A DNA stretch of 64,000 nucleotides from Hyphomonadaceae bacterium (GTDB lineage Bacteria > Pseudomonadota > Alphaproteobacteria > Caulobacterales > Hyphomonadaceae). The position numbers were made by a program, and so were the translations under genes. Shown in pieces: positions 39,370 through 63,654 of the stretch (position 1 is its first letter; every line of letters begins with the position of its first letter). The stretch lies in NCBI GenBank assembly GCA_030158285.1, contig JAOATF010000010.1, forward strand, positions 1-64,000. Reading direction: 5' to 3'. The notes beneath the pieces were generated by a model that had not been told where the DNA came from, searched no databases, and worked only from the letters and a program-made list of their open reading frames with translations.

Positions 39370-39414
39370 TGGTGCTGCCTACGTGACTTGAACACGTGAC
39401 CCCCGCATTACGAA
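39370..39414 (-). repeat. att-like repeat 2, with compensatory T-stem change
   Basis: Same 45-bp tRNA-Thr 3' segment as at 10395 and 55740, except that the T-stem reads ACGTG/CACGT instead of AGGTG/CACCT. Both strands of the stem change together, so pairing is kept. The sequence to the right (ATTACACATG...) does not complete a tRNA. Confidence 0.8.
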
Positions 39415-39548: not shown

Positions 39549-39652
39549 GTAACCGTCCGGTCTGACCGACCTTACGGCGGGGTGGATAAGGGTCATTCTG
39601 GATGGATCGGGGCGGATCGTGTCCGCTTGTCTATCGTGGACGCGATCCCACC

Positions 39653-40006
39653 ATGTCCGACCATAAGCCTGTCAGGGTGCGCCGCACCTACCCCGATGCG
39701 TTCAAGCGCCAACTGGTGGCAGAGACGCGTGAGCTGGGCATGTCGATTGCCATGGTCGCGCGGCGGCACGGCATCAACGCCAACGTGGTGTTCGGCTGGC
39801 TGCGGGATCCGCGATTTGGCGGCAAGGCCGTTCCGGCAGAGTTCCTGCCGGTGGTGGCCAGCTCGACCCCGGTGATGACGGTCAGCCCGGACAAGCGGCC
39901 TGACCCGCTGGACCTGACCGTCGAGTTTCCCGGGGGAGTACGCGTCCATTGCCGGGATGAGCCCTCCTTGATCGTGGTGTTGCGAGCGGCACGACGCACA
40001 TCATGA
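39653..40006 (+). CDS. tnpA: IS66 accessory protein TnpA
   Basis: 117 residues from the ATG at 39653 ([20 protein letters not shown]). The N-terminal helix-turn-helix ([25 protein letters not shown]) is the transposase-8-like DNA-binding domain of IS66 orf1. It overlaps tnpB by 4 bases. The track start 17 codons upstream lies within the terminal region of the IS and is not preferred. Confidence 0.9.
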
Positions 40007-40350
40007 TCCCGGTTCCAGTCTCGACGCGGGTTTGGCTGGCGGCGGGCGTCACCGACATGCGCAAGGGGTTCGATGGTCTGAGTGCGCTCGCCGAGAAGGT
40101 GCTGGAGCAAGATCCGTTCAGCGGTCATCTGTTCGTCTTCCGCGGCCGGCGCGGTGATCTGATCAAGGTCATCTGGTGGGATGGACAGGGAGCCTGCCTC
40201 TTCGCCAAGCGGCTGGAGAAGGGGCGCTTCGTCTGGCCCTCACCAGCGGATGGGCGTATCGTCATCACTCAGGCGCAACTCGCCATGCTGCTGGAAGGGA
40301 TCGACTGGCGCGCGCCACAACGCACCTGGCAACCGCTTATGGCGGGATGA
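40003..40350 (+). CDS. tnpB: IS66 accessory protein TnpB
   Basis: 115 residues beginning [22 protein letters not shown] and containing [20 protein letters not shown], the canonical IS66 orf2 (TnpB) signature. It is required with TnpA and TnpC for IS66-type transposition; its biochemical role is not known. It starts in an ATGA overlap with tnpA. Confidence 0.95.
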
Positions 40351-40401
40351 TCATCAACCGTCGGATTCACAAGCTGGACGAGGCATGGCAGAGTTCAGCT
40401 C

Positions 40402-42028: not shown

Positions 42029-43279
42029 GTGAAGCTTACAAAACGCAGCATCGAAGCGCTCGCGGCGCCGAAGGAAGCGAGCATCGTGTTTGATGAAGAC
42101 CTCCCTGGATTCGGTCTGCGTATAGCTCCTTCTGGCAGGAAAACCTTCGTCGTCCAGTACCGCGTCGGCGGCGGTCGGGGAGGCCGGCAGCGTCGCGTTT
42201 CTGTCGGAGTGTTCGGTACGATCACGCCGGAAGATGCGCGGACCGAGGCAAAGAAGATTCTGGCGCGCGCGCACCTGGGAGACGACTTCGCGGATCAGCG
42301 GGACAAAACTCGCAACTCGAAAACCGTAAGCGAACTCATTGACGAGTGGTCCAAGGGCGGAGTGCTCATCAACCGGCGCACTGGGACCAGGCGACAGCAG
42401 GTGAATATCAACAACGACATTGCGTTGGCCAATCATCATCTGAAGCCTCTGATCGGCAACCGCACGCTAGAGAGTCTTTCCAAAGGCGACATTCAGTTGC
42501 TGCGCAACCGCATCGCTGGCGGTGACACCAAGACAACACGCAAAGGCCGTCGACGCGGCAAGATCAACGTCACCGGCGGGGAGGGAACTGCGACCAGAAC
42601 GATCCGGCTGTTCTCGTCGATCCTGTCCTACGCGGTCGATATGGAATTGATCGCGCGAAATCCCGCCCTGGGCATCAAGCTGCCGCCGGGCGGTCAGCGG
42701 CATCGCTACCTGTCAGCGGATGAGCTTCGCCGGTTGGGGGAGGTTCTTGAACGACCAGCGTCCACGACGGCGGCGGGGACTGCCGCCATCATCCTGCGCC
42801 TGCTCATCCTTACCGGGGCGCGGCGCGGCGAGATCGAAGGGCTGAAATGGTCGGAAGTCGACTTCAACTTCGGCATGCTGCGCAAGAAGACCAGCAAGAC
42901 CGGAGCCAAGGTCATACCGCTGGCCCGGGTTGCGGTCGAGATTCTCGAAGAACAAAGACGCTGGATAGACCGCAGCCAGATCTGGGTTTTTCCCGCGCAC
43001 CGGGGCGAAGGACACTTCGATGGTCTGAACAAGGAATGGCATCGCATCCGCAAGCTTGCCGGCATCGAAGACGTTCGCATTCACGACCTGCGGCACACCT
43101 TTGCGAGCGTGGGTGCAGGCGGTGGCGTGGGGCTGCCGCTCATTGGCGGAATTCTCGGGCATCGTCAGGCTTCGACGACGCAGCGATATGCTCACCTGGC
43201 TGACGGGCCTCTGCGAACAGCGGCCGACTTGATTGGTAGTGAGTTGGCAGCTGCGCTTGCTGGGGCCTCGTCTCGGTAA
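42029..43279 (+). CDS. int: Tyrosine recombinase/integrase 2 (DUF4102 type)
   Basis: 416 residues, same length as integrase 1 and differing at only scattered positions. It has the DUF4102 N-terminus LTKRSIEALAAPKEASIVFDEDLPGFG and the same catalytic set: Arg in TGARRGEIEG, HDLRH, GHRQ and the nucleophilic Tyr in TTQRYAHL. It starts at GTG with GGAGG upstream. The IS66 element sits about 75 bp before it and separates the gene from most of its conserved leader and its att repeat, which may alter its expression. It is convergent with hipA with a 2-bp gap. Confidence 0.95.
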   Translation: MKLTKRSIEALAAPKEASIVFDEDLPGFGLRIAPSGRKTFVVQYRVGGGRGGRQRRVSVGVFGTITPEDARTEAKKILARAHLGDDFADQRDKTRNSKTVSELIDEWSKGGVLINRRTGTRRQQVNINNDIALANHHLKPLIGNRTLESLSKGDIQLLRNRIAGGDTKTTRKGRRRGKINVTGGEGTATRTIRLFSSILSYAVDMELIARNPALGIKLPPGGQRHRYLSADELRRLGEVLERPASTTAAGTAAIILRLLILTGARRGEIEGLKWSEVDFNFGMLRKKTSKTGAKVIPLARVAVEILEEQRRWIDRSQIWVFPAHRGEGHFDGLNKEWHRIRKLAGIEDVRIHDLRHTFASVGAGGGVGLPLIGGILGHRQASTTQRYAHLADGPLRTAADLIGSELAAALAGASSR

Positions 43280-44529: not shown

Positions 44530-44741
44530 CGCCGGTCGCCCTCTGGCGTCGTGATGTGAAGTTTGCAGCCGAGTGCATCCAGAACCGCGAGAGCCTTCGC
44601 GAGTTGCGACGATCCCTTGCCAGCTTCTAGCTCGACGAGGAAACGCAGGCCCACGCCGGAGGCGGCGGCAAGCTGCGGTTGTGTCAGCCTTTGAGCCTTG
44701 CGGGTGTCACGGACGAGTTCGCCAATCTGGATCGCGGTCAT
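44526..44741 (-). CDS. hipB: HipB-family antitoxin / HTH repressor
   Basis: 71 residues from the ATG at 44741 (MTAIQIGELVRDTRKAQ); the track start 16 codons upstream would place operator DNA inside the gene. A helix-turn-helix of the XRE type is clear: RLTQPQLAAASGVGLRFLVELEAGK. It should neutralise HipA and repress the operon. Three palindromes with core CCCGATCGGG lie directly upstream. Confidence 0.92.
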   Translation of the reverse strand: MTAIQIGELVRDTRKAQRLTQPQLAAASGVGLRFLVELEAGKGSSQLAKALAVLDALGCKLHITTPEGDRR

Positions 44742-44748
44742 GATGGAT

Positions 44749-44862
44749 TTCCCGATCGGGAAAGTATGGTACGAAAGGCTGAAGATCAAGTCAAAATATC
44801 CCGATCGGGAAAGTGTAGCGCCTTATCTCAGCAATTTTTGAAGAATATCCCGATCGGGATAT
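44749..44862. promoter_or_regulatory. Triple hipBA operator
   Basis: Three palindromes with identical core CCCGATCGGG lie at 44751-44760, 44800-44809 and 44849-44858, so the centres are exactly 49 bp apart. The outer one reads ATATCCCGATCGGGATAT, which resembles the TATCC...GGATA operators of E. coli hipBA. Sequence and spacing are seen directly; HipB binding is inferred. Confidence 0.85.
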
Positions 44863-44887: not shown

Positions 44888-45529
44888 CTACCAGCGTAGC
44901 AAGCGCCAACCTGCGACGGCGCCCAGTGCTGTCGAGAGCGCAATTCCTGCCGTGTACCAGATTGCCGTGAACGCGGCGGACGTCTCGGCGCAGTGCAGGC
45001 CGTAGACGGTGGCGGCGATGCCGCCGACGAACAACCCGGCGCCAGCGCCGGCGAGTGCGGGTCGGGTCGGTGCGAGGCTGCGCACGGCGACCAGGCTGAG
45101 AGCGAGGCCGGGAATAGCGAGCGCCACGATGCGCCAGGGGCAGCGATCCCATGTCGAGCCAAGGAGGGCGTCGCGCATGTCTTCAGCGGGCGTAGAGAAT
45201 AGCTGGACGGCGGCGATCCCCAGCATCAGGGCTATGACAGCGACCAGCGCGATGATCCCACGCGTTGCCTTTGTGCCGGGGCGGGAGAGACGTTCAGCGA
45301 GAAGGAATCCTGCGATGGCAAGAGCGAGAGTATAGATTGTCTTCATCCAGTAGCTGGGCGAGGCGACAGCTTCGGCCATGTCGCGCAGGCCAAGCCAGGC
45401 GACCAGTAAGGCAAACGCAACGACGGCGCCGACGAGCGCGGCCGGACCGAGGCGGCGTGTAACGGGGAACGGCGATGCAGGCTTTTTCGCATCGGCCGCC
45501 ATCAGGGCGATGAGATCATCAGTTTTCAT
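44888..45529 (-). CDS. nrsF: NrsF-family anti-sigma factor (DUF1109)
   Basis: A 213-residue membrane protein with about six transmembrane helices, the DUF1109/NrsF architecture. Two conserved Cys, Cys130 in WDRCPWR and Cys180 in YGLHCAE, match the pair shown to be needed for metal response in Caulobacter NrsF. Such proteins sequester SigF at the inner membrane and release it on exposure to heavy metals or oxidants. It overlaps the sigma gene by 11 bases and has GGAGGG before its ATG. Confidence 0.9.
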   Translation of the reverse strand: MKTDDLIALMAADAKKPASPFPVTRRLGPAALVGAVVAFALLVAWLGLRDMAEAVASPSYWMKTIYTLALAIAGFLLAERLSRPGTKATRGIIALVAVIALMLGIAAVQLFSTPAEDMRDALLGSTWDRCPWRIVALAIPGLALSLVAVRSLAPTRPALAGAGAGLFVGGIAATVYGLHCAETSAAFTAIWYTAGIALSTALGAVAGWRLLRW

Positions 45530-46091
45530 CGCGAACCCTCCGCATCAGGACTTTCAGCGACCGGTGAACACTGACCTTGACCGCGCTTTCGGACATGCCG
45601 GACTTCCTCGCGGCCTCCGCGGTGGAAAGGCCGCCGAGCTTCACGTCAGACAGCACCTGCCGTTGGCGGTCCGGCAATTCACCGAGCAGACGATCGACAT
45701 CGAGGCGTGCGGAAGGATCTTCATCGTCCGACGAGAAAAGACTGTTAGCGGCTTCAAGAGGTTCGGCGCGTCTGACCCGGCGGCGGCGGAATTGATCGAT
45801 CAGCTTGTAATGCGCAATCGCGTAGGCCCATGACGTGAAAGGTTGGGCAGCGTCCCAGGTTTCGCGCTTGAGATGGATGGCGAGAAGGGTTTCCTGCACG
45901 AGGTCTTCCACATCGGCATCGCTGCTGCCGAGTTTTCTTGTGAAGTAGCGTCGCAGATAAGCGCTCATGCGCGACAGCAATTCAGCATGCGCGGCTGCAT
46001 CACCGGCAAGTCCGCGCAGCATGAGCGCTTTAAGCGGTGCGTCGATCTCACCCAAGCCATGACCCCGGCGTCCGCCCCCGATTGGAGCCAT
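45519..46091 (-). CDS. sigF: ECF RNA polymerase sigma factor, SigF type
   Basis: 190 residues from the ATG at 46091; the 371-residue track ORF reads into the doxX gene. Region 2 (DLVQETLLAIHLKRETWD, FTSWAYAIAHYKLIDQFRR) and region 4 (LLGELPDRQRQVLSDVKLGGLSTAEAARKSGMSESAVKVSVHRSL) are complete. With the downstream NrsF partner it matches the Caulobacter SigF-NrsF system. It is cotranscribed after doxX (80-bp gap). Two candidate promoters of its type occur in the window (48615-48642 and 55335-55362), the first reading into this same operon, so positive feedback is likely. Confidence 0.9.
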   Translation of the reverse strand: MAPIGGGRRGHGLGEIDAPLKALMLRGLAGDAAAHAELLSRMSAYLRRYFTRKLGSSDADVEDLVQETLLAIHLKRETWDAAQPFTSWAYAIAHYKLIDQFRRRRVRRAEPLEAANSLFSSDDEDPSARLDVDRLLGELPDRQRQVLSDVKLGGLSTAEAARKSGMSESAVKVSVHRSLKVLMRRVRDEN

Positions 46092-46171
46092 GGCTGTTTC
46101 TAGCCGGAAGCGCCGCCCGACGCCATGCCCGGCATGGACGGGCACGGCGAGATAAAAGGGCTGGACGGCAA

Positions 46172-46624
46172 TCAGGGCAGTTTCAGCGCGCGATCGAGGG
46201 ACAGCGCGCCGCCTCCGCGAGCGACTAGGTAAAGCATGGGACCGGCCCAGCTGAGATGCGTGGGCCAGGCGTCGGGATAGACGAAGAGCTGGATCACCAG
46301 CGTCATTCCGATCAGGCCGGCAGCGGACATGCGTGTCAGCAGACCGAGGACGAGCAGAATGGAGAAGGCGTGCTCGGCATAGGTGGCCAGGTAGGCTGCA
46401 ATCTCGGGCGGCAAGAGCGGGACATTGTACTCGTAGGTGAACAGCGTGAAGGTCTCGGGCTTCAGCGTGATTAGGCCCTCGACCTTGGTGCGGGCGGAGA
46501 GGAAAAACACTGCCGCGACGCCGAAGCGGCAGACGAGCGCAATCAGCCATTCGGGGATGATCGTATCTGGCGCACGCAGCAGAGCTATGACTGGATTGGT
46601 ACGGGCTTCGGCAACGGCGTTCAT
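46172..46624 (-). CDS. DoxX-family membrane protein
   Basis: 150 residues, four predicted transmembrane segments. DoxX features are [60 protein letters not shown] and a C-terminal LSLDRAL. DoxX proteins accompany bufferin-type (DUF2282/DUF692/DUF2063) operons. A role in membrane redox chemistry is possible but unproven. Its ATG overlaps the DUF2063 stop by 4 bases. Confidence 0.88.
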
Positions 46625-47397
46625 GTGGGCACATCCGGGATCGGGTTGATGGTGCTGAAGAGACCGAGGGCGATGCCGCCGGTCAGGATATGCGGTAGCG
46701 AGCAGGCGGGATCGGCAGCAAACGCGTGCTCGGCGGCAGCGACGATCGAGTCGTGGCGCCGGAGGGCTTCAAGGAAAGCGAAGGTACCGGCATCAACGAG
46801 GTGTGATTGCACATGCGGGCCCGTACGGATGAAAAGAATCCGCTCCGGCATATCGGTGAGCTGATGCGCTTCGCCTCGCAGAGGTGATTGGTGGGCAAGC
46901 CACAGCGAAGGGATGCCTGTGTCCAATGCCGCAAGACGCAGCGTGGGGTGAAGACCCAAGCTAGTGCTGTCCAGAATTTCCGGCGGAAGCATCGAAAGGC
47001 ATGCCGCGTCAAGTAAGGGAGCGTCCGCGGCCGACCAGGACTGCCACCATAGCCAGTCGAGGTGCGCTGCGCCGGCGAGGTAGGGCGTGTCCGCAGCAGG
47101 CGGAAAATCCGTGAGCCATTGTGAGAAGTCGGCGCCATAGCCGATGAGCGCGGGATCGTCCGGCGGATGAGCGCGGGTAAATTCGCGAGCAGCGCCGCGG
47201 AACCATTCCTCGCCGACCATCAACTGAACGGTGGCAAACGTAGCGGCGAGCGCGTCGATGGCGCCGCTGGCGATCGTGTTGCGATACACCTCAATGCCTT
47301 GTGCAGGTCGCGTCAGCCAACGGGACAGCATGGTCACATCGCCTGCTATGGCCGCGTCGAAAGCATCGAAAAAGTTGCTTTCTTCATGCCGAGACAA
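46621..47397 (-). CDS. bufC: DUF2063 protein, partner of MNIO enzyme (BufC/HvfC type)
   Basis: About 258 residues. The N-terminal domain ([57 protein letters not shown]) is DUF2063, the partner subunit that presents the precursor peptide to the DUF692 enzyme. I place the start at a TTG (47397) because AGGAGG stands six bases upstream; the track start at 47415 would lie upstream of that ribosome-binding site. It overlaps the bufB 3' end by 14 bases. The C-terminal half is less conserved in the family. Confidence 0.85.
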
Positions 47398-48232
47398 GGG
47401 CGGCCTCCTGTGCAACTGCGAGAATTCGTGCGGCAGCGTCGCGCTCCGCGACGAGGTCCGCGTAGGCCGGAATATTGTCGTCCCGTTCGATCAGGGTTGG
47501 ACGTGGGCCTGTCCGCGCAATGAGACGCCTGTAGAGGCGCCAGACGGCGTCATCGATCGGCGCGCCGTGGGTGTCGATCAGCAGGTCCGCGCCGAGTGTG
47601 GGGTCAGGCGCATGACCGGCAAGATGGATCTCGCCAATCAGATTCGCAGGAATTGCGTCGAGATAGGTCTCGGCTGAGTATCCAAGATTGTTGGAGCTTA
47701 CGTAGACGTTGTTGACGTCGAGGAGCAGGCCGCAGCCGGTGCCCCGGCAGAGGCTGACCAGGAATTCCGCCTCGCTGTAGTCGTGACCCTTGAGGGCGAG
47801 ATAGAGCGACGGGTTCTCGATCAGGATGCGGCGGCCGAGGGCTTCCTGTGTTCGATCAATGTGACGGGTGATCCGTGCAAGTGCGGTTTGCGTGCGCGGG
47901 AAGGGCAACAGATCCGGGTGATAGACGCCGGCGCGACGCGACCAGGCGAGATGTTCTGAAACCACAAACGGCTCATAGTGATCGACGAGCTGGCGCAGGC
48001 CCGCCAGGTGCGTTTCGTCTGGCGCCTCATCCCCTGCCAGAGACAGGCCGACGCCATGGAGAGAGAGCGGATGGCGGTCCCGGACTGCGGCAAGGGCCGC
48101 GTGGCGTGGACCGCCATCGCACATATAGTTCTCGGGATGGACCTCGAACCACGCGCCAGCCGCCGTATCGCTGATCGCATCGGCGTAGTGCTGAGGCTTC
48201 AGGCTGAGACCGGCGGCTGGCGCGATGGTCAT
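47384..48232 (-). CDS. bufB: DUF692 multinuclear iron oxidative enzyme (BufB/HvfB type)
   Basis: A 282-residue TIM-barrel MNIO (DUF692). Metal-ligand segments expected for the family are present in order: FEVHPENYM, LHGVGLSLAG, VVSEHLAW, ILIENPSLY, GLLLDVNNVYVSS, EIHLAGHA and DTHGAPIDD. MNIOs oxidise Cys residues of ribosomally made peptides; in bufferins they form thiooxazole groups that bind copper. It lies 4 bp downstream of the precursor gene bufA and is translationally coupled to bufC. Confidence 0.92.
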   Translation of the reverse strand: MTIAPAAGLSLKPQHYADAISDTAAGAWFEVHPENYMCDGGPRHAALAAVRDRHPLSLHGVGLSLAGDEAPDETHLAGLRQLVDHYEPFVVSEHLAWSRRAGVYHPDLLPFPRTQTALARITRHIDRTQEALGRRILIENPSLYLALKGHDYSEAEFLVSLCRGTGCGLLLDVNNVYVSSNNLGYSAETYLDAIPANLIGEIHLAGHAPDPTLGADLLIDTHGAPIDDAVWRLYRRLIARTGPRPTLIERDDNIPAYADLVAERDAAARILAVAQEAALVSA

Positions 48233-48236
48233 GAGG

Positions 48237-48545
48237 TTACATCTTCGCCGTGAGCGAGCCCATGCCGTTCGGCGTCTTGATCGTGGTGCACGTGCCGGCC
48301 TTCACCAGCGACCAGGCATTCGCCTGATAATCCACCGTCGAGGTGCCGGCGCAGGAGGTACCGGCGCCTGCCTTGCAGTCATTCTGGTGCGCCTTGGCGA
48401 CGCCGTAGCACTTTTCCATGCCAGCTTCCTGAGCGGCGGTCGGCGGCTTCTTGGCGGGCATGTTCTGGGCTGACGCAGCGCCTGCAAGTGTGCCGGCGAC
48501 GGCAAGTGCGCCAACGAGCGCGGAGATCGTGGAAGCGTTCTTCAT
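48237..48545 (-). CDS. bufA: Bufferin-type precursor peptide (DUF2282)
   Basis: A 102-residue protein with an N-terminal signal sequence ([21 protein letters not shown]) and a mature part with four Cys at 46, 57, 65 and 86 in [19 protein letters not shown] and GTCTTI. This is the DUF2282/bufferin pattern, in which the leader is an ordinary export signal and modified Cys bind copper in the periplasm. It is first in the operon bufA-bufB-bufC-doxX-sigF-nrsF (leftward), with a SigF-like promoter 70 bp upstream. Confidence 0.88.
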
Positions 48546-48614: not shown

Positions 48615-48642
48615 TATCCGTATGAAGCAGGCCGCCGGTTAC
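48615..48642 (-). promoter_or_regulatory. SigF-type promoter of the buf operon
   Basis: On the minus strand, GTAACC (48642-48637), 16 bases, then CGGATA (48620-48615). Caulobacter SigF promoters have GTAACC-N16-CGAA-like elements. The -10 lies 70 bp from the bufA start, giving a plausible 5' UTR. The match is seen directly; the use is inference. Confidence 0.75.
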
Positions 48643-48722: not shown

Positions 48723-51053
48723 TCAGATCGCGGATGTTGCCTTGGCGTCCGGGCTCTGCATGAAGGCGAGGAAGTCGTCGACCGCCAGCGGCTTTGCAAT
48801 GAGGTAGCCCTGGATCATGTCCGCACCCATTGCGCGCAGGATCGCAAGAACATCCGCGGTTTCGACACCCTCAGCGGTGAGCTTCATGCCGAGGCTGTGG
48901 GCTAGGTCGATCGTCGACTTGACGAGGAAGGTATCGCTGTTTCCGTTGCCCAGGTTTTCCACGAAGACCTTGTCGATCTTCAACTCTTCCGCGGGTATGG
49001 CGCGCAGATAGGACAGCGAGGACAGGCCTGAGCCATAATCATCAATGGAAATTCCAACGCCTGCCTGTTTGAGTTCGTTCATCACGTCCAGCGCCAGCTG
49101 GGGATTGTCGATGACGGCCGTTTCGGTGATCTCGAAACAAAGCCTGGCCCCGGAACGCCGGACCTGGCGCAACGCCCGCTCGGCAAACTGCTCGTTCGCG
49201 ATCAGCCTCCCGGAGACATTCACGGACACTGTTACGTCATGACCGGCCTTCTGGAAGATGCGCTGGTCTGCGATCGCGCGATCGATGACCCAGTCGGTAA
49301 GGGGCCGGATATGGCCGGTTTCCTCTGCCATGCCGATGAAAGCATCCGGCCGGATCATGCCGCGTTGCGGATGACGCCAGCGCAGCAACGCTTCGGCGGA
49401 ATTCACTCTATCTTTTCTCAGGTCGAGTTTTGGCTGGTGCGCCAGGAACAGCTCGCGGTTCGAAAGCCCGTGGATCATCGAGCTCATCAGCGAAAGTGTC
49501 GTGGCTGGATCTCCATAGGCCGCCGGATCGAACCATCCGGTGATCCTGCGTTGGGCGCGGCTCTGTTCGACGGCGACTTCGGCGCGCTCCAGCAGTTCGA
49601 GATGCGCTTTCGCATCCTCCGCATCGCAGGCAAGCCCCGCCGTCACCATCACATCGATGCGGTCGCCATCCAGCGTCACCGGACTGGATACCGCCTGTGC
49701 GGTTGCGCGAATCGTGGTCTCGGCGGCATCGCGACTTTCGGCCGTGAAGATGATGGCGATGGTGCCCGTGGTTGCGCGTCCCACATGAAGACCTTCGCCT
49801 GAATGCGAGGCCCGGGTCGCAACTTCGGCGACCAGGCGCGAAAACAGACCATGCCCGATTGCGCCGCGTATCTGGTCGAAGCGATTGATGCTGATGATCG
49901 CGCCGAATATGTTGCCCGGTGATGTCCCGCCGCGCAGTGTCGCCAGCGTCTCTTGCAGGGCGCGCAGGTTCGGCAGTCCGGTTTCCTGATCGTGCCGCGC
50001 CAGATGCAGGATACGTTGTTCGCGCGCGGCGATCTCGGAGGACATGACGTTGAAGTTCGCCGCCAGTTCCGCAATTTCGTTGCGGCCCTTGACCGCGACC
50101 TCGGCAACTTCGCCGCGCGTCAGTTGATCAGCCGCCGCCCGTAGGCCGGAAATCGGCCCGGTCACGCGGCGCGAGACAAACCAGCTGCCAAGGACAAGCG
50201 CAGCAAGGCCGATTGCGCCGATCAGCGCGATGGTCGTGAGCATGTCGCGGTAGTGCGCCTGGTTCATGGTGAGCGAGTATTCGAGCAGAAGCGCTGCGGA
50301 GGCTCCGTCGGCAAACACCTGCAATGTCTTGACGCCCCCGATCGAGTTGCGTTCGGGCATGTTGATCAGCAAGTCGCCGTCCGTCTCGATTGCGCGGCCT
50401 GCAAGCTCGTCGCCGGCAATGCCAATCGCGCGTCCGGGTCTGTCTTCTAGCGCTGTCCACGTTTGACCTTCGCGCCGTAGATATAGATGTGCGGACAAAG
50501 GGATGGCCGAAAGTTGCTCGAGCTCTCCCAGCTGTTCGCCGCCGAGCCGCTGGCCGAACACGACCCAACCGATCAATGTGGGCGCGCGGACGGGCGCTGA
50601 CACGGCTTGATAGGTCATTCCTCCCAGCGTGAGTACGCCGGATGCGTCAGGGTTGGTGGTGACAGCGGTGAGAAGGGTGGGGTCCACCCGTCCGGTCAGT
50701 TCCTCATCAAGCGAGATGGCCGATCCATCCGGGCGAATGATCAGCGCCGTTTCAAAGCCAAATCGCGACTGGATATTGTCGAGCGCGGAAAGCATGGTTT
50801 CGTCATCGCCCGTGGCGACCGCTTCCCGGAATCCAAAATCACGCGACAGGATTTCTGCCGTTTGCTGCAACTGGTCGGCGCGCAGTTTCCAGATGCGGTC
50901 GAACACGGCGGAGGACGATGTCATCTCCGCACGCACGGCTTGCCTGGAGTTCGCCTCGACCGCTACCCAGACCGCACCCGCAATCAGCATCAGTACGACG
51001 CCAAACAGCGCCGCATAGATGAGCGTGAGTTCTGATGAGAGGCGTTTGAACAT
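48723..51053 (-). CDS. EAL-domain c-di-GMP phosphodiesterase with degenerate GGDEF domain
   Basis: A 776-residue membrane protein. It has a transmembrane helix at 9-32, a periplasmic region of about 240 residues (dCache-like), a second transmembrane helix (about 275-296), HAMP (RRVTGPISGLRAAADQL), a GGDEF-type domain whose signature is replaced by GRATTGTIAI (no cyclase activity expected), and a full EAL domain (AEALLRWRH, FEITET, DDYGSGLSSLSYL, EGVET, QGYLIAKPL). It should hydrolyse c-di-GMP in response to a periplasmic signal. The gene is 18 bp downstream of the cupredoxin-like gene in one operon. Confidence 0.92.
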   Translation of the reverse strand: MFKRLSSELTLIYAALFGVVLMLIAGAVWVAVEANSRQAVRAEMTSSSAVFDRIWKLRADQLQQTAEILSRDFGFREAVATGDDETMLSALDNIQSRFGFETALIIRPDGSAISLDEELTGRVDPTLLTAVTTNPDASGVLTLGGMTYQAVSAPVRAPTLIGWVVFGQRLGGEQLGELEQLSAIPLSAHLYLRREGQTWTALEDRPGRAIGIAGDELAGRAIETDGDLLINMPERNSIGGVKTLQVFADGASAALLLEYSLTMNQAHYRDMLTTIALIGAIGLAALVLGSWFVSRRVTGPISGLRAAADQLTRGEVAEVAVKGRNEIAELAANFNVMSSEIAAREQRILHLARHDQETGLPNLRALQETLATLRGGTSPGNIFGAIISINRFDQIRGAIGHGLFSRLVAEVATRASHSGEGLHVGRATTGTIAIIFTAESRDAAETTIRATAQAVSSPVTLDGDRIDVMVTAGLACDAEDAKAHLELLERAEVAVEQSRAQRRITGWFDPAAYGDPATTLSLMSSMIHGLSNRELFLAHQPKLDLRKDRVNSAEALLRWRHPQRGMIRPDAFIGMAEETGHIRPLTDWVIDRAIADQRIFQKAGHDVTVSVNVSGRLIANEQFAERALRQVRRSGARLCFEITETAVIDNPQLALDVMNELKQAGVGISIDDYGSGLSSLSYLRAIPAEELKIDKVFVENLGNGNSDTFLVKSTIDLAHSLGMKLTAEGVETADVLAILRAMGADMIQGYLIAKPLAVDDFLAFMQSPDAKATSAI

Positions 51054-51071
51054 GTCGATGCGCCGCCCGCT

Positions 51072-51680
51072 CTATTTTGGGCGCGCGATGTCGAGCACAA
51101 CCGTCACCGTGGTGGTTCCCGCAGAAACGGTCAGGGTTTGCGTGACGGTCTGGTCCTTCGCTGTGGCGTAGGGATGCCAGACATCGATGCGACGGCTGCC
51201 CTCTGGCGCGGCAGTCAGCCTGGCCACGCCATCAGCACCGGACTTCGCTGCCCATGGTGTGTCCACCACACGGATGAAGGCCACCATCTGGTCGTGGATG
51301 TTGCAGCCAAGCGCGGCGACGCCGGCCGTCTTGAAGGTAATGACACGCTTCTCTTCGCGACCGTACAACTCCAGCTCGAACTTGTTGCCTTTGGAAAACG
51401 AGTAGACGTGATGCCGGAACTTATCGAGGTTCGGAAACTCGACGGTCGATCCAACCGGCGCGATCAGAACGAACGGCGCGAACTGCTTGGACGTTTGCGC
51501 CATCCTGAGGCCATCGGCCGGAGCAGGCTTCGGATCACCTGGATTTGCGGGCATCAATACCACCGCGTCGGGTAGGGGCTTTCCATCAGGCGTAGTCACG
51601 CGGATGACGATGTCGCCGGCCGATGCCTGCGCCGCAAACAGAAGCGATGTGATCGCGGATAGAAGGAACCTGTCGAGCAT
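51072..51680 (-). CDS. Exported cupredoxin-like protein ('methylamine utilization' type)
   Basis: 202 residues from the ATG at 51680 (MLDRFLLSAITSLLFAAQASAGD, a clear signal peptide); the longer track start lacks a signal. The cupredoxin core shows FPNLDKFRHHVYSFSKGNKFELELYG and the Cu-ligand segment LGCNIHDQMVAFI with Cys, His and Met. Annotation as a methylamine-utilisation protein is by similarity in databases and does not imply methylamine use. It is divergent from DUF3034 and starts the operon with the EAL gene. Periplasmic copper binding fits the neighbouring buf operon. Confidence 0.82.
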   Translation of the reverse strand: MLDRFLLSAITSLLFAAQASAGDIVIRVTTPDGKPLPDAVVLMPANPGDPKPAPADGLRMAQTSKQFAPFVLIAPVGSTVEFPNLDKFRHHVYSFSKGNKFELELYGREEKRVITFKTAGVAALGCNIHDQMVAFIRVVDTPWAAKSGADGVARLTAAPEGSRRIDVWHPYATAKDQTVTQTLTVSAGTTTVTVVLDIARPK

Positions 51681-51823
51681 CCATCTCCCGTACCACTGCA
51701 CACTGAAGATGCCGTAAAGCCATGCGGGGTCTGCCCCGAGGTGTTCGGTGTTGGTTAAACCTTCCATGCAAACTCACTGCATCGCGCGCGCACAAGTGCG
51801 AGCGCGTTGCGGTGGGATTCTGA

Positions 51824-52714
51824 ATGTCACGATTTGGCGTTGCCTGCGTCGCTCTTGCTATGGGGATGCCGTTGGCGGCCCATGCGCAGGAAGACGCGCC
51901 TGCTATAGACGTCGAGACCGGCGGCAAGCTGAAGCTGACACGCGGCATCTCGACGATCGAAGGGCAGGGCGGTGGCGGTCTAACTCCGTGGGCGCTCATC
52001 AACGGCAACGAAACAGATCGCGGCGTCGGCGGCACGGCTCATGTTACCGGGGTTGAACTTCCGGATTACTCCCTTCTCTCTTATGGCGCAGCGCTCGGCC
52101 TCTTCGATCGAGTGGAGCTCAGCTATACGCGGCAGGAGTTCGATACACAGGATGTTGGCGCCGCACTTGGCCTGGGCCGCGGCTTCACTTTCGGCCAGGA
52201 TGTCTGGGGCGCAAAGGTGCGCGTGATCGGTGATGCGATATACGATCAGGACACATGGCTGCCGCAGGTCGCCGTCGGCGCAAACTGGAAGAAGAATGAT
52301 CAGGGCGCTGTCGTTTCCGCTGTGGGCGGGACAGACGACGAAGGTTGGGAAACCTACGCCACTGCCACAAAGATCCTGCTCGACAGCTCGCTGCTGCTGA
52401 ACGGCACGCTGCGCTGGACCAACGCGAACCAGACCGGCCTGCTCGGATACGGCGGCAACCTCAATGACGACCACGAACTGATGGGTGAGTTCTCCGCCGG
52501 CTGGCTTCTGTCGCCCGATGTCGTTGTTGGCGCGGAGTACCGGATGAAGCCGGACAACCTCGCAATCGCGAAGGAAGACGACTGGGTGGACATCTACGCC
52601 GCCTGGGCAGTCAACCACTACGTCACGCTCACCGGCGCCTATGTCGACCTCGGTTCGATTGCGACGTTCGACAATCAGCGTGGCATCTATCTTTCACTGC
52701 AGGCGGGGTTCTGA
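51824..52714 (+). CDS. DUF3034 outer-membrane-like protein
   Basis: A 296-residue exported protein (FGVACVALAMGMPLAAHAQ signal). The mature sequence has alternating strands with ELSYTRQEFD, DVWGAKVRVIGDAIYDQDTWLPQVAVGANWKK and a C-terminal GIYLSLQAGF ending in Phe, as in outer-membrane barrels. It belongs to the DUF3034 family. Function unknown. It is two bases from the truncated haemoglobin gene and so is cotranscribed with it. It diverges from the cupredoxin-EAL operon over 143 bp. Confidence 0.88.
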   Translation: MSRFGVACVALAMGMPLAAHAQEDAPAIDVETGGKLKLTRGISTIEGQGGGGLTPWALINGNETDRGVGGTAHVTGVELPDYSLLSYGAALGLFDRVELSYTRQEFDTQDVGAALGLGRGFTFGQDVWGAKVRVIGDAIYDQDTWLPQVAVGANWKKNDQGAVVSAVGGTDDEGWETYATATKILLDSSLLLNGTLRWTNANQTGLLGYGGNLNDDHELMGEFSAGWLLSPDVVVGAEYRMKPDNLAIAKEDDWVDIYAAWAVNHYVTLTGAYVDLGSIATFDNQRGIYLSLQAGF

Positions 52715-52716
52715 TC

Positions 52717-53220
52717 GTGCGAATAGCCCTTGCTTTCGCTGCTGCGACAATCCTCTTCGCCGCACCCGCTTTCGCTCAGCCGATTTCGCCCGTTCCTCCA
52801 GGGGAGGAAGAGGTCGATCCCTACACCGTCTCCGACGCTAACGCCGGCGCCACGCCGGTGGACGGGCAGGAACTGCTCGCTGCCTTCCATGGACGTGATG
52901 GGATCAGCCGGGTTGTGGATGATCTCGTCGAGCAGGTGCAGAAGGATCCCCGGTTGACGGAGATCTTCAAGGCGTCGGATTTCGTGCGGCTGAGACGTAC
53001 GCTCAAGGAGCAGTTCTGCTACATCCTCAACGGCGGGTGCTCCTACACCGGGCGCGACATGAGGTCAGTCCACGCCGACCACGGGGTCACCCTCGCCGAG
53101 TTCAATGCCCTCGTCGAAGTGCTCCAGACCGCAATGGCGCGGGAGGGCGTAGCGTTCTCCGCCCAGAACAGGCTGCTCGCCAAGCTGGCGCCGATGAAGC
53201 GGGATACCGTGACCCGGTAG
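52717..53220 (+). CDS. Exported group-I truncated haemoglobin
   Basis: 167 residues, beginning at a GTG (52717). The N-terminal signal peptide (ALAFAAATILFAAPAFAQ) marks it as periplasmic, which is unusual for globins. The globin part has the family pattern FCYILNGGCSYTGRDM followed by HADHGVTLAEFNAL; the His is the expected proximal haem ligand. Possible roles are NO or oxygen chemistry in the periplasm. The gene set with DUF3034, a cupredoxin and an EAL protein is tightly packed and recurs as a block in other proteobacteria, to my recollection. Confidence 0.85.
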   Translation: MRIALAFAAATILFAAPAFAQPISPVPPGEEEVDPYTVSDANAGATPVDGQELLAAFHGRDGISRVVDDLVEQVQKDPRLTEIFKASDFVRLRRTLKEQFCYILNGGCSYTGRDMRSVHADHGVTLAEFNALVEVLQTAMAREGVAFSAQNRLLAKLAPMKRDTVTR

Positions 53221-55334: not shown

Positions 55335-55362
55335 TATTCGCGCGGGGAGGCCAAGTGGTTAC
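55335..55362 (-). promoter_or_regulatory. SigF-type promoter of the peroxiredoxin-like gene
   Basis: Minus strand GTAACC (55362-55357), 16 bases, then CGAATA (55340-55335). This has the same -35 and spacing as the buf promoter, and the -10 CGAA core is that reported for Caulobacter SigF. It ends 47 bp from the gene start. Confidence 0.78.
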
Positions 55363-55739: not shown

Positions 55740-55784
55740 TGGTGCTGCCTAGGTGACTTGAACACCTGACCCCCGCATTACGAA
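55740..55784 (-). repeat. att-like repeat 3: 3' part of tRNA-Thr(CGU)
   Basis: Identical to the copy at 10395 over the 45 bp. The right flank (CGGAGCCGGGCGG) cannot form the 5' anticodon stem, so this is again a fragment. The intact tRNA gene, which must have its 5' half to the right, is not in the window. Confidence 0.8.
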
Positions 55785-55991: not shown

Positions 55992-57275
55992 GTGAAGCTG
56001 ATCAAGCGCAACATTGATGCGATCGAGAAGCCCGAAAAGGACCTCTACCTTTTCGACGATGACCTCGCCGGCTTCGGCCTTCGCGTTTATCCGACCGGGC
56101 GCAAAGTGTTCATTGCCCAGTACCGGGTTGGCGGTGGTCGAGGCAGCCGCCAGCGTCGCTACAGCCTGGGTGTCTTCGGGAAGATCACCGCGGACGAGGC
56201 ACGGGCCAAGGCGAAGGATGTTCTCGCGCGTGCTCATCTGGGTGAGGACACCGCTGAAGAGCGGGACAAGGTGCGCCGCTCCCAAACCGTCGCGCAGCTG
56301 ATCGACGCCTGGTCCATTGATGGCGCGCTCAACAACCGACGGACGGGCGTGAGGCGGAAGCAGGTCAATATCGACCAGGACGTCGCCCTGGCCAATCACC
56401 ATATCCGTCCCCTGATCGGACGCCGAACAGTGGAAAGCCTGGTCAAGGGCGACATCCAACGCGTGCGAACCCAGATCGCAACGGGCGAGTCAAAGTCCAA
56501 ACGGAAGGGCCGCAAGCGCGGACTCATCAAGGTCACGGGCGGGGAAGGCACCGCAACGCGGACCATCCGCCTCTTCTCCTCGATACTGTCCTACGCGGTC
56601 GATGCAGGGATGATCGAGCGAAACCCGGCGCTCGGCATCAAGCTCGCTCCGTCAGGACAGAGGCACCGCTATCTGTCGCCTCAGGAGCTGAAGCGCCTGG
56701 GCGAAGTTCTGGATCAGCCGGCTGCCTCGGAGACATCGGGTACGGCGGCTACCATCATCCGCCTGCTGGTCCTGACCGGCGCACGACGGGGCGAGATCGA
56801 AGGATTGAAGTGGTCTGAGGTGGACTTCAACTTCGGCATGCTTCGAAAGGAGACCAGCAAGACAGGCGCGAAGGTCATCCCGCTGGGCAGGGCGGCTCTC
56901 CAAATCCTGGATGATCAGCGCCAGTGGACGTCGAGCAATCAGGTCTGGGTATTTCCTGCTCAGAAGGGCGACGGGCATTTCGACGGGCTCAGCAAGGAGT
57001 GGGCGCGCATTCGCCGGTTGGCGAAAATCGAGGACGTCCGTGTTCACGATCTTCGTCACACGTTCGCAAGCATAGGGGCGGGTGGTGGAATTGGCCTTCC
57101 ACTCATCGGCGGTATCCTCGGCCATCGGCAGGCGTCCACAACGCAAAGGTATGCGCACCTCGCGGACACGCCGTTGCGCGCGGCGGCCGACGTCATCGGC
57201 AGCGAAATTGCCGCTTCACTTTCAGGGGCGGGGTCTAAAGAGCAGCGACGGCCGGAGAAGCTCGCGCTCCTTTAA
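55992..57275 (+). CDS. int: Tyrosine recombinase/integrase 3 (DUF4102 type)
   Basis: 427 residues. It has the same domain layout as integrases 1 and 2 but is clearly diverged, especially in the N-terminus (LIKRNIDAIEKPEKDLYLFDDDLAGFGLR), with a longer basic C-terminus (KEQRRPEKLALL). Catalytic motifs TGARRGEIEG, HDLRH, GHRQ and TTQRYAHL are intact. It starts at GTG (55992). It likely uses the same tRNA-Thr target, since the same repeat precedes it. A 114-bp gap follows before the copper genes. Confidence 0.95.
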   Translation: MKLIKRNIDAIEKPEKDLYLFDDDLAGFGLRVYPTGRKVFIAQYRVGGGRGSRQRRYSLGVFGKITADEARAKAKDVLARAHLGEDTAEERDKVRRSQTVAQLIDAWSIDGALNNRRTGVRRKQVNIDQDVALANHHIRPLIGRRTVESLVKGDIQRVRTQIATGESKSKRKGRKRGLIKVTGGEGTATRTIRLFSSILSYAVDAGMIERNPALGIKLAPSGQRHRYLSPQELKRLGEVLDQPAASETSGTAATIIRLLVLTGARRGEIEGLKWSEVDFNFGMLRKETSKTGAKVIPLGRAALQILDDQRQWTSSNQVWVFPAQKGDGHFDGLSKEWARIRRLAKIEDVRVHDLRHTFASIGAGGGIGLPLIGGILGHRQASTTQRYAHLADTPLRAAADVIGSEIAASLSGAGSKEQRRPEKLALL

Positions 57276-57740: not shown

Positions 57741-57809
57741 GGACACGAGAGTCGCATTGCGCCTGCGTGCGCGATGCATCCGTTCCACATCAGACATCCG
57801 GATATTTAC

Positions 57810-59042
57810 ATGCGCACAGCATGGCTTTTGTGCTGCGCCGTCGGCTTGACGCCGGCAGCGTGGGCCGACCCCGTATCCTTCAGCGAGGCGCTCGCCCGCG
57901 CTGGCTCGGATGCACCCGCCATAGCGGCCCGGCAGGCTGCGGCGGACAGCGCGCGCCTATTGGTCAAACCGGCCGGCCAGCTGCCCGATCCCCAACTGGC
58001 GCTCAGTATCGACAACTATCCCATCTCCGGGCCCGACCGATTCAGGCTCAATCGCGACGAGATGACGATGCTCAATGTCGGCGTGATGCAGGATGTGCCG
58101 AGTGAAGCTTCAAGGCGCGCGCGGGAAGGGCTAGCGCGCGCCGAAGTCACGGCGTCTCTTGCGGCGATCGACATCACTCGCCTGGAGGCCCAGCTTGCGG
58201 CCGCGAATGCTTGGCTTGAGGCCTTCTACGCCGAACGGCGCGTCGCGATATTGATGAGTCTCGCTGGCGATGCAGCCGCCCTAGAGCAGGCGACCACCGC
58301 CAGTTTCAGCACGGGCGCCGGCAAGCCTGATGCAGTCCTCTCTGCGCGCCTGCAGTCAGCGCGTCTGGAGGACAGGATCTCCGATGCAAAGTTTGAGGCG
58401 GCGGCGGCGCGCGTAGAACTCGAACGCTGGATCGGCCCGCTGGGCCAAGACACGCTTGGGCCAAGTCCACCAGATTTCGTGATCGATCCGGCTGCCCTGC
58501 GGGCTCACATTGAGCACCACGTCGAGGTTGCAGGCTCTTCGGCCTCAATTGCGCGTGCGCAAGCAGAGATGGAGCAGGCCCGCGCCAGCCGCGAACCAGA
58601 CTTGTCCTGGTCAGTGATGTATGGCCGTCGCGATCCGGCCTTTGGCGACATGCTTTCCTTCGGATTGAAATTCAGCCTGCCTTTGTTCCAGTCGGATCGC
58701 CAGAGCCCGACGATCGATGCGCGTCGCGCCGACGTGCGGCGAGCCGAGGCCGATCGTGAGACGGTGCTCCGCGAGCATCGCGCCATGCTGGAGGCGAAGC
58801 TGGCGGAGCACGACCTGCTGACGCGGCGCCTCTCGCGGTCGCGCGAGGTCGTCCTGCCGCTGGCGAAGGAGCGCGAAAGCGTGGCGTCGGCCGCACATGC
58901 GTCGGGAACGCTCGATCTCGCCGAACTGTTCGCAATGCGCCTTGAGGTGAAGGAGGTGGAATTGGAGCGGCTGGATCTCGAGCGACGTCTGGCGCTGGTG
59001 GATGTCTATCTCGCCCTCGAATACGGGGAGGCGCAGTCGTGA
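57810..59042 (+). CDS. cusC: TolC-family outer-membrane channel of copper/silver efflux
   Basis: About 410 residues from the ATG at 57810 (MRTAWLLCCAVGLTPAAWA signal); the track start 12 codons earlier is not preferred. It has two long coiled-coil helical repeats typical of outer-membrane efflux proteins (ARAEVTASLAAIDITRLEAQLAAANAWLEAFYAE and the later PLFQSDRQSPTIDARRADVRRAEADRE). It forms the outer-membrane exit duct of the RND pump encoded by the next two genes. It overlaps cusB (GTGA). Confidence 0.88.
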   Translation: MRTAWLLCCAVGLTPAAWADPVSFSEALARAGSDAPAIAARQAAADSARLLVKPAGQLPDPQLALSIDNYPISGPDRFRLNRDEMTMLNVGVMQDVPSEASRRAREGLARAEVTASLAAIDITRLEAQLAAANAWLEAFYAERRVAILMSLAGDAAALEQATTASFSTGAGKPDAVLSARLQSARLEDRISDAKFEAAAARVELERWIGPLGQDTLGPSPPDFVIDPAALRAHIEHHVEVAGSSASIARAQAEMEQARASREPDLSWSVMYGRRDPAFGDMLSFGLKFSLPLFQSDRQSPTIDARRADVRRAEADRETVLREHRAMLEAKLAEHDLLTRRLSRSREVVLPLAKERESVASAAHASGTLDLAELFAMRLEVKEVELERLDLERRLALVDVYLALEYGEAQS

Positions 59043-60490
59043 CCCCGCGCACGCGAACATTCTCTCTTGCGGCCGCCGCGATCGCGGCGCTCGCAGCCGT
59101 GGGAGCGAGCGGTTACTGGCTCGGAACCAGCCAGGGGTCAGGTCCGACAAGCGCAGGCGAACGCGAGATCCTTTACTGGCACGACCCGATGGTCCCGGAC
59201 CAGCATTTCGACAAGCCCGGTAAATCTCCATTCATGGATATGGAGCTTGTGCCTCGCTATGCGGGTGAGGCCGACGCCTCCACCGCCGTCCGGATCGATC
59301 CGGGCGTGGTGCAGAATCTCGGCGTCCGCTACGCAGTCGTCGAGCGTGGCGACGTCAGTCAAAAACTCAGCGTCTCCGGCACGCTGACCTACAATGGTCG
59401 CGCAGTTGCAGCGGTGCAGGCCAAGCAGGAAGGATTTGTCGAGCGCAGCCGCGATCGCGCGATCGGCGATGTCGTGAGAGCAGGGGATCCGATTGTCGAT
59501 CTGCGCGTCCCAGCGTGGACGGCAGCCCTGGCAGAGTATCTGTCCCTCCGCAAAGGAGCCGATACCGCCCTCGTGGAGTCGGCGCGGGCTCGGCTCGGCA
59601 TGCTCGGTGTTCCAGGCGAGGCGATGAACGAGGCCGAACGTTCGGGATCAGCGCCAGCGACCTTTATCGTTCGCGCGCCTATCAGCGGCGCCTTGGTCGC
59701 GCTCGATGCGCGTCAAGGAATGTCCATAGCTGCCGGTGCTCCGATCGCTTCAATCAGCGGCCTGTCGCCGGTCTGGTTGATAGTCGCGGTGCCGCAAGGC
59801 TCGCTTGGCGACATTGCGAACGGCGCGTCGGCGACCGCTATGTTCCCCGCCTTCCCCGGGGAACGGTTCAGCGGAAAGATCGATGCCGTTCTGCCAAGCG
59901 CCAATCTTGCCAATCGCACCGTCGAGCTCCGCATCGCACTGCCTAATCCGGACGGGCGCTTGCGCCCGGGCTTGACAGGCACAGTCGACATAACTGGCGA
60001 CGGGGCGCGGCAGGCGCTGCTCATTCCCTCGGGCGCGGTGATCCGCACGGGGCAACGCACTGTTGTCATCGCAGCACGGTCAGATGGCGGGTTCGAACCA
60101 AGGGATGTGACACTGGGCGCCGCCGTAGGCGAACGGCAGGAAATTATCTCGGGTCTCGCCAAGGGCGAGCGCGTTGTCGCCTCCGGTCAGTTCCTGATCG
60201 ATTCGGAGGCCAATCTTACCGGCGTGCTGGAGCGGTTGCGTGGCGGTTCAGGCACGGCGGCGTCCGACGCCTACGAGTCGACCGGCAAAATCACGGCTGT
60301 CGACGCCAGCGGCGTCACCATCGCTCACGCACCCGTCGCAGCTCTCAACTGGCCCGAGATGACCATGGCGTTCGGCTGGGGCGGCCAACCACTCGACTTC
60401 AAGGTGGGTGATGAGGTCGCCTTCTCGTTCCGGAAGGGCGGGGCCGGTTATGTCCTGATGGCGATCCGCAAGGCGGGGGCGTCAAGATGA
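59039..60490 (+). CDS. cusB: RND periplasmic adaptor CusB with heavy-metal-binding domain and C-terminal CusF-like domain
   Basis: 483 residues, GTG start. After the membrane anchor (residues 9-28) comes a heavy-metal-binding domain ([27 protein letters not shown], about 40-75). The barrel-sandwich and beta-barrel domains of a membrane-fusion protein follow (about 80-390). The last 80 residues repeat a CusF-like fold ([29 protein letters not shown]) with the Trp and Met ligands for Cu(I)/Ag(I). The fusion of a chaperone-like domain to CusB is notable. It overlaps cusC and cusA by 4 bases each. Confidence 0.92.
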
Positions 60491-63400
60491 TCGGATACGT
60501 CATCCGCTGGTCGATCGCTAACCGGCTGATCGTCGTCCTTGCGACGCTCGCGCTCGCCGTCGCGGGTGCGTTCGCCGTGCGCGCGACGGCAGTCGATGCA
60601 TTGCCGGATCTTTCTGACGTCCAGGTGGTGGTGCGCACGACTTATCCCGGTCAGGCGCCGCAAATCGTCGAGGACCAGATCACCTATCCGATGAGCGCAG
60701 CGATGCTGTCGGTCCCGGGCGCGCGCAGCGTGCGCGGCTATTCCTTCTTCGGCGACAGCTTCATCTATGTGATTTTTGACGAGGGCGTTGATCTCTACTG
60801 GGCACGATCGCGCGTGCTCGAATACATGTCCCAGGCGCGCGAGCGTCTGCCCGAAGCGGCACGATCAATCATCGGCCCGGACGCTACGGGGGTCGGGTGG
60901 ATCTATCAGTACGCACTGGTCGATCGCACAGGCGGCCACGATCTCGGCGAACTACGCAGTCTCCAGGACTGGCTCCTGAGCTTCGAACTGAAAACCGTTC
61001 CCGGCGTTGCGGAAGTGGCTCCGATTGGCGGGATGGTGCGGCAACATCAGATCGTTCTCGATCCGCAAAAGATGGCGGCTTATGGCGTTTCGCAGAGCAT
61101 GGTGGCCGGCGCCGTGCGCCGTGCCAATCAGGAAGCCGGTGGAGCGGCGATCGAGATCGGTGAGGCCGAGCATGTCGTGCGGGCTAGCGGATATCTTCGC
61201 ACCGACGAAGACTTCCGCGCCATCCCGGTGAAGTCTGCTGGCGAGGGCGTACCAGTAACCCTTGGCGATGTCGCCTGGATCGAGATTGGTCCACAGATGC
61301 GCCGCGGCATCGCAGAACTGAATGGCGAGGGTGAGGTTGCGGGCGGCGTCATCATTATGCGATCCGGCGCCAACCCTCGTGAGGTGATAGCCGGCGTCAA
61401 GGCCAAGCTGTCGGCGCTCCAGGATCGCCTGCCTAAAGGCGTCGAGATCGTCACGACCTATGATCGGTCCGGCTTGATCGATCGCGCGGTTGAGAACCTC
61501 ACCGGAAAACTCATCGAGGAGTTCATTGTCGTAGCCCTGGTCTGCGCTCTGTTCCTGTTCCACCTGCGCTCGGCGCTGGTGGCGATCGTCACGCTGCCAC
61601 TGGGTGTCGCCACCGCCTTTCTGATCATGCGCGGGCAGGGGATTGACGCCAACATCATGTCGCTGGGCGGTATCGCCATCGCCATCGGCGCCATGGTCGA
61701 TGCGGCAATCGTCATGATCGAGAACGCGCACAAGCGGTTGGAGCAATGGCGGCGCGAACATGATGGCGCGATGCCGGCCGGCGCCGATCATTGGCGGGTC
61801 ATCACTGATGCCTCGCTTGAAGTCGGCCCAGCGCTGTTCTTCAGTCTTCTGATCATCACTCTGTCCTTCCTGCCGATCTTCACGCTGGAAGCGCAGGAGG
61901 GGCGTCTGTTCGCGCCGCTCGCCTTTACCAAGACCTACGCCATGGCGGCCGCGGCAGGGCTCGCGGTCACGTTGACGCCCGTCCTGATGGGATACTGGAT
62001 CAGGGGTCGCATTCCCGAGGAGCGCGCCAACCCGCTCAACCGGGCGCTCGCGTCAGCCTATCGTCCTGCGATCGACGGCGCGCTTGCGCATCCCCGATTT
62101 GTCATCGCCGCAGCACTTGTCGCGCTCGCGACGGTAGTCTGGCCGCTGACCCGGCTCGGGGCGGAGTTCATGCCGGTGATGGACGAGGGCGATCTTCTCT
62201 ACATGCCGACGGCGCTGCCCGGCCTCTCCGCGGCAAAGGCCTCCGAGCTGCTTCAGCAGACCGACCGCATGATCAAGATGGTGCCGGAGGTCGAGAGCGT
62301 GTTTGGAAAGGCGGGCCGCGCCGACACGGCGACCGATCCGGCGCCGCTCGAAATGTTCGAAACGACCATCCAGCTGAAGCCACGGTCGGAATGGCGGGCA
62401 GGGATGACGCCCGAGAGTATCGTCGCCGAGCTTGACCGCACTGTGCGCGTGCCGGGGCTGACCAATGTCTGGGTGCCGCCGATCCGCAACCGCATCGACA
62501 TGCTTGCCACTGGCGTTAAAAGCCCGATCGGCGTCAAGCTCAGCGGCGCTGATCTCGCTTCGCTCGATGTAGCCGCGCGTACGGTCGAGCAGCTAGCGCG
62601 GAAGGTTCCGGGAGTGTCATCCGCGGCGGCCGAGCGGGCAGGCAGCGGCCGATATCTCGACATAGACATCGATCGCGCGGCGGCTGGCCGCCTGGGCCTC
62701 AACATCGCCGACGTGCAGGAGATCGTCTCAGGCGCGATTGGCGGTGAAGCAATTGGCGAGCTGGTGGACGGACGCGCGCGCTATCCGATCAGCCTGCGGT
62801 ATCCGCGGGAGCTTCGAGATACGCCGGAGCGCATCGCTCAATTGCCGGTGGTCACCGACAACGGGCTGCTTCTAACCCTCGGCGATGTCGCGTACATATC
62901 GGTGAGCGACGGTCCTACCATGATCCGAAGCGAAAACGGCCGCCTGGCGACGTTCGTCTATATCGATGTGCGCGGCCGTGACATCGCGTCGGTGGTGAGC
63001 GATTTGCAGCGATCAGTCGCCGCAGCCGATCTGCCCGAGGGCGTAACCGCTGCCTACTCCGGACAGTTCGAGTACCTGGCGAGAGCGGCGCAACGGCTAG
63101 CGGTGATTGGCCCGGTCACGTTGGGCGTCGTCTTCCTCTTGTTGTTCTTCACATTCCGCAGACTGGACGAAGCCCTGCTCGTTATGGCCAGCATTCCCTT
63201 CGCGCTGATCGGCGGCGTCTGGCTTGTCTATCTGCTGGGCTACAATCTCTCTGTCGCCGTTGGGGTTGGGTTCATCGCGCTCGCCGGTCTGGCGGCCGAG
63301 TTCGGCGTCGTCATGCTGCTCTATCTCAGGAACGCTCTCGCGGAACGCGAACGGCACGGGCAATCGCTGGACCCTGCCGACGTGATCGCGGCGATTCGCG

Positions 63401-63654
63401 AGGGCGCTCTGCTTCGGCTCAGGCCCAAGACCATGACCGTTGCGGTGGTGCTGGCTGGCCTGCTGCCCCTTCTCTGGACGGGCGGGGCAGGCGGGGAAGT
63501 CATGCGCCGCATTGCAGCTCCGCTTGTCGGCGGCATGATCACGGCCCCGCTGCTCTCTCTCTTTGTCATTCCCGCGGCTTACCTCATGATCCGACGCCGC
63601 GGCGTTGCGCAGACTGCGCCTGTAACACGCCGGATCGCACCCTGTGGAGATTAA
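60487..63654 (+). CDS. cusA: RND transporter CusA (copper/silver efflux)
   Basis: 1,055 residues, full length for HME-RND pumps. The N-terminus ([26 protein letters not shown]) is the first transmembrane helix. TM4 has the charged proton-relay segment ([28 protein letters not shown]). The periplasmic part carries [42 protein letters not shown], regions that hold the Met triad for Cu(I)/Ag(I) in E. coli CusA. This supports copper/silver rather than Zn/Co/Cd (CzcA). It overlaps cusB and is one base upstream of cusF. Confidence 0.94.

Follow-up and report, generated by a model that had tools for sequence, protein, structure and literature searches.

The window analysed here, a stretch of DNA of 64,000 nucleotides, carries a SigF-type site (GTAACC-N16-CGAATA, 55335-55362, minus strand) upstream of a gene encoding an exported CxxC redoxin. 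We propose with considerable confidence that SigF, an ECF16 sigma factor whose gene lies on the same integrative element, uses this site as a promoter and, once freed from the anti-sigma factor NrsF, would drive both the buf-sigF-nrsF operon and the redoxin gene. Sequence comparisons make the redoxin gene a very probable, newly predicted member of the known SigF stress regulon, and its expression in this organism is expected to depend on SigF. The initial annotation had proposed a second SigF promoter with the redoxin as a regulon member, a proposal supported by the published promoter consensus, by co-occurrence of the site with NrsF, and by linkage to sigF, nrsF and buf.

The SigF-type site and its frequency

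Read 5′ to 3′ on the minus strand, the region upstream of the redoxin start codon is ...CTGTAACC-acttggcctccccgcg-CGAATA-cagaatgc...ATG, in which the spacer acttggcctccccgcg separates the two promoter boxes by 16 nt (Table 1); counting the T before GTAACC, TGTAACC-acttggcctccccgcg-CGAATA extends from 55363 to 55335. The −35 GTAACC, the spacer of 16 and the −10 CGAA are all present, as in the Caulobacter SigF promoters (GTAACC-N16-CGAA; PMC3511200) and the ECF16 group consensus (tGTAACc-N16-CGAA; PMC3420878), and genes for both an ECF sigma factor and an NrsF-type anti-sigma factor are found in the window. The last base of the site is 47 bp from the redoxin ATG (55288), confirming the distance and location given in the initial annotation, and the spacing is 16 here and at the buf promoter, also as described there. 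By analogy with mapped ECF16 promoters, the redoxin transcript is predicted to start approximately 5-8 nt downstream of CGAATA.

Table 1. Features of the window discussed in the text, with coordinates and strand.
Feature	Position	Strand	Remarks
−35 box GTAACC	55357..55362	-	T before box, as in ECF16 consensus tGTAACc
−10 box CGAATA	55335..55340	-	spacer to −35 box 16 nt
first SigF-type promoter GTAACC-N16-CGGATA	48615..48642	-	upstream of bufA-bufB-bufC-doxX-sigF-nrsF
exported AhpC/TSA-family redoxin, 194 aa	54704..55288	-	Pfam PF00578 8.8e-24
bufA, DUF2282 bufferin precursor	48237..48545	-	PF10048 1.2e-24
bufB, MNIO bufferin maturase	47384..48232	-	NF050167 360 bits, above cut-off
bufC, DUF2063	46621..47415	-	PF09836
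doxX	46172..46624	-	PF07681
sigF, ECF sigma factor, group 16 type, 167 aa	45519..46022	-	Sigma70_r2 + r4_2; nrsF directly after
nrsF, anti-sigma factor	44888..45529	-	PF06532 1.7e-61, 208 bits
tyrosine integrase of element 2	42029..43279	+	Pfam PF00589
tRNA-Thr(CGT) 3′-end repeat, left end of element 2	39370..39414	-	2 mismatches within 30-nt search pattern
tRNA-Thr(CGT) 3′-end repeat, right end of element 2	55740..55784	-	~0.38 kb upstream of redoxin promoter

The window contains 15 copies of GTAACC and only two exact matches to GTAACC-N16-CGRATA, the redoxin and buf sites, which bears out the earlier statement that no other copy combines this spacing with CGRATA; with up to two mismatches allowed, six matches were found against 3.2 expected. 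Across the 4.19-Mb genome, GTAACC-N16-CGRAT matched three times, compared with once for a reversed control, and two of the three matches are again the redoxin and buf sites. The third (G000:C53) lies 23 nt 5′ of an ATG opening a frame whose start resembles, by eye, D-Ala-D-Ala ligase, and was set aside as a regulon site, being a probable chance match. The genome-wide scan for GTAACC-N16-CGRA proposed in the initial annotation returned nine matches, not above the nine of its reversed control, and a CGRAY pattern gave no clear excess in genomes of the genus, with or without NrsF. Because the CGRA count equals that of the control, the pattern scan cannot decide the question, and it was dropped as proof; counts from a single genome are weak evidence. 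The "minimal regulon" of the initial annotation fits the stringent pattern, but the pattern alone does not have genome-wide specificity. Such counts are what would be seen if GTAACC-N16-CGAATA had arisen randomly upstream of an unrelated gene; however, the orientation and distance of the site fit a promoter, and this together with its behaviour in related genomes makes a chance origin highly improbable.

Conservation of the site and linkage in relatives

Redoxin orthologues were taken from 61 related genomes and from GTDB genome contigs, and NrsF was sought in the same genomes. The scoring matrix was derived from the relatives' sigF/buf promoters only, leaving out redoxin promoters, and the score of each redoxin upstream region was compared with those of 1000 dinucleotide-preserving shuffles, a site being called at p <= 0.01. 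A site precedes the redoxin orthologue in 14 of 19 NrsF-positive genomes and in 0 of 38 NrsF-negative genomes (Fisher 1.5e-9, a value inflated by relatedness), and the redoxin site of the window has the top matrix score among the 57 orthologue upstream regions (shuffle p = 0.001). The spacing is 16 in all 14 sites, which occur in Hyphomonadaceae, Sphingomonadales and Micavibrio-type lineages, and the boxes are kept while the spacer sequences vary, arguing further against chance. The redoxin tree requires at least eight motif changes; NrsF moves with the motif in an average of 3.4 of five independent pairs on supported branches, and against it in none. The phylogeny-corrected sign test on these five pairs (p 0.25) falls short of significance because the independent pairs are too few. 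Comparison of these sequences supports retention of the site before redoxin orthologues in step with the sigma/anti-sigma system, relatives without the SigF control system seeming hardly ever to keep it.

Five NrsF-positive genomes have no site of their own before the redoxin (L049, L053, L063, L080 and L087). In L049, an acidobacterial MAG, GTAACC-N16-CGAA precedes sigF and the redoxin starts ~0.9 kb after sigF, so that operon linkage probably explains the missing site; in the other four, NrsF is present and no site was seen before the redoxin. A near-threshold site (p 0.014) precedes the redoxin of L091, a genome in which NrsF was not found, perhaps owing to an incomplete MAG, and in L029 the site falls 31 nt into the gene as extrapolated, the start of which may have been wrongly placed.

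Gene order in relatives points to the same association. The Hyphomonadaceae MAG L037 has doxX-bufC-bufB-bufA, sigF-nrsF and the redoxin gene in one cluster, the redoxin gene having its own GTAACC-N16-CGAACA site. In G005 and G013 the redoxin is apart from sigF and the site is still kept, in G005 on a different contig. The buf-operon site is found at the same place in relatives L158-L162, and with an N15 spacer in L165. Partial NrsF-like sequences (L166 and L167) were also seen in G001 and G005, each with GTAACC-N16-CGAATG upstream, perhaps representing a second, degraded system.

Alternatively, the site could be a genuine ECF promoter that mainly serves a different sigma factor with overlapping specificity, or one on which SigF and a further regulator both act. 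There is precedent in Caulobacter, where a second, unknown factor also reads the sigF promoter and CC2748 is only partly SigF-dependent (PMC3511200), as well as in the possible cross-talk of two ECF16 factors in Bradyrhizobium (PMC3420878). Against this, the genome search for NrsF returned one copy, that in the window, and the site tracks NrsF presence; we therefore regard such a reading as unlikely and favour SigF as the main regulator.

The exported redoxin, the buf-sigF-nrsF operon and their integrative element

An AGGAAAG sequence lies 9 nt 5′ of the redoxin ATG, and the hydrophobic N-terminus of the protein, ending in AFA, has the appearance of a signal peptide by eye. Its AlphaFold model (mean pLDDT 87) has Bcp1, Bcp4 and BcpB as best Foldseek matches and is closest to the PrxQ/Bcp and AhpE folds (3drn, 5epf, 1xxu), with ResA (1su9) also among the matches; the sequence scores under every cut-off for the NCBIfam PrxQ/Bcp, AhpE and ResA families. 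Peroxiredoxins carry T/S-x-x-C at the active-site position. This motif is absent from the redoxin, in which C78-P-F-C81 (CxxC) occupies that place; the surrounding RSADWCPFCK is kept in the alignment, with W77, C78, P79 and C81 invariant across 21 sequences. The earlier description as "peroxiredoxin-like" is accurate for the fold, given an AhpC/TSA domain and a predicted peroxiredoxin fold, but not for the active site, and the protein is therefore named a peroxiredoxin-fold CxxC redoxin. With PrxQ/Bcp, AhpE and ResA it shares a similar predicted fold, differing in being exported and in having an invariant CPxC where PrxQ has TxxC. Judged by these residues, thiol-disulfide exchange is as likely a function as peroxidase activity.

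On the minus strand, between 48545 and 44888, the operon bufA-bufB-bufC-doxX-sigF-nrsF includes all parts of a bufferin cluster: a DUF2282 precursor, an MNIO maturase (MNIO_BufB above cut-off), DUF2063 and DoxX. The sigF frame is open over 371 aa (45519-46634), and since homology begins at an internal ATG (46022), sigF probably starts there. NrsF has the NrsF domain and only two cysteines, C130 and C180, at positions matching the conserved Caulobacter NrsF pair C131 and C181; its score against NCBIfam NF042994 is 187.8 bits, below the cut-off of 300.

A 45-nt tRNA-Thr(CGT) 3′ end occurs in three copies in the window (10395-10439, 39370-39414 and 55740-55784). No complete tRNA was found at the element ends, only the tRNA-Thr 3′ part; the complete tRNA-Thr is located on contig C213. 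Each repeat is followed by a related tyrosine integrase (10647-11897, 42029-43279 and 55992-57275; 70-93% identical), and from their sequences the three repeat-integrase units are interpreted as integrative elements arranged in tandem at a single tRNA site. The segment between the second and third repeats holds the two SigF sites together with sigF-nrsF, buf and the redoxin gene, and the sites are therefore inside element 2 (~39.4-55.8 kb) instead of bracketing it as had been suggested, if the same element was meant. A single integrative element thus seems to carry the known part of the regulon.

Other genes of this region were observed alongside. An IS66-type insertion (39602-41916; transposase 40402-41916) separates the second tRNA-Thr repeat from its integrase, and adjoining nrsF in element 2 are genes for a HipA-like protein (43282-44529) and a small HTH protein (44526-44789), a probable toxin-antitoxin pair. 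The block at 48723-53220 encodes a GGDEF-EAL protein, a Pfam-less protein, a DUF3034 protein and a truncated-globin-like exported protein; its counterpart in G004 is collinear, at 86% identity. The 48.7-54.7 kb block is found in G005 on the other side of sigF-buf. Heavy-metal RND efflux genes (CusB-like with a CusF domain, and AcrB/CusA-like) follow the third integrase at 57774-63654, adjoining the SigF-buf element.

Proposed regulation and comparison with known ECF16 systems

In the proposed mechanism, NrsF would keep SigF at the membrane until metal or redox stress acts on the two NrsF cysteines and SigF is freed, with release by NrsF and copper induction drawn from the literature on relatives. 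SigF-RNA polymerase would then transcribe buf-sigF-nrsF, providing autoregulation, and would also read the second promoter, so that the secreted CxxC redoxin would be raised together with the operon. The redoxin would most likely work alongside the copper-binding bufferin under copper or oxidant stress, repairing periplasmic thiols or keeping them reduced, such thiols being its presumed substrate. A bolder and tentative possibility gives the exported CPxC redoxin a dedicated part in the ECF16/bufferin copper response, such as maintaining bufferin cysteines in reduced form or resetting the NrsF cysteines, and has the sigma factor, the anti-sigma factor and the promoters they control moving as one self-contained stress regulon on a tRNA-Thr integrative element. 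If so, the joint carriage of a sigma factor and the promoters it targets by an integrative element would illustrate how a whole stress circuit can move among bacteria. Described SigF/ECF16 regulons are small, and little is known of their periplasmic roles beyond bufferins and methionine-sulfoxide reductases. An exported redoxin that is conserved, with a promoter following the presence of the sigma/anti-sigma system, would add a concrete function to a known regulon. The comparison of NrsF with site presence may be reused to delimit regulons of this very small size when counting patterns does not suffice.

Sinorhizobium RpoE7 and Brucella BcrS, also of ECF16, have small regulons and GTAAC/CGAA promoters as here (PMC6180224, PMC8315932); the cluster described as the RpoE7 target has the Caulobacter buf operon as its orthologue and that described for BcrS is bcrXQP, with no exported redoxin among these described targets. 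Bradyrhizobium EcfF-OsrA (ECF16) shares its type of sigma/anti-sigma pair with the system here and resembles it in motif and in having a redox regulon of the periplasm, differing in its N14-15 spacing and its methionine-sulfoxide reductase targets (PMC3420878). EcfF also controls what the authors of that study predict to be a membrane-anchored periplasmic thioredoxin with a DsbD-like partner (PMC3420878), a protein not necessarily of the same family as the redoxin. The mainly open-access literature searched on DUF692/ECF16 regulons names no redoxin of this family as an ECF16 target. In the SigF-NrsF system of Caulobacter crescentus (PMC3511200, PMC8224329), chromate makes NrsF release SigF, the regulon is copper-induced, and induction by Cr, Cd and Cu has been reported. 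Its promoter sequence and spacing and its buf operon genes (DUF2282-DUF692-DUF2063-DoxX) are the same as here, and the NrsF cysteine pair matches by position. For Caulobacter, two buf operons, sigF-nrsF and msrPQ have been reported as targets, with an AhpC/TSA redoxin not among them; unlike in Caulobacter, the buf operon here has sigF-nrsF at its 3′ end, and the regulon is located on an integrative element.
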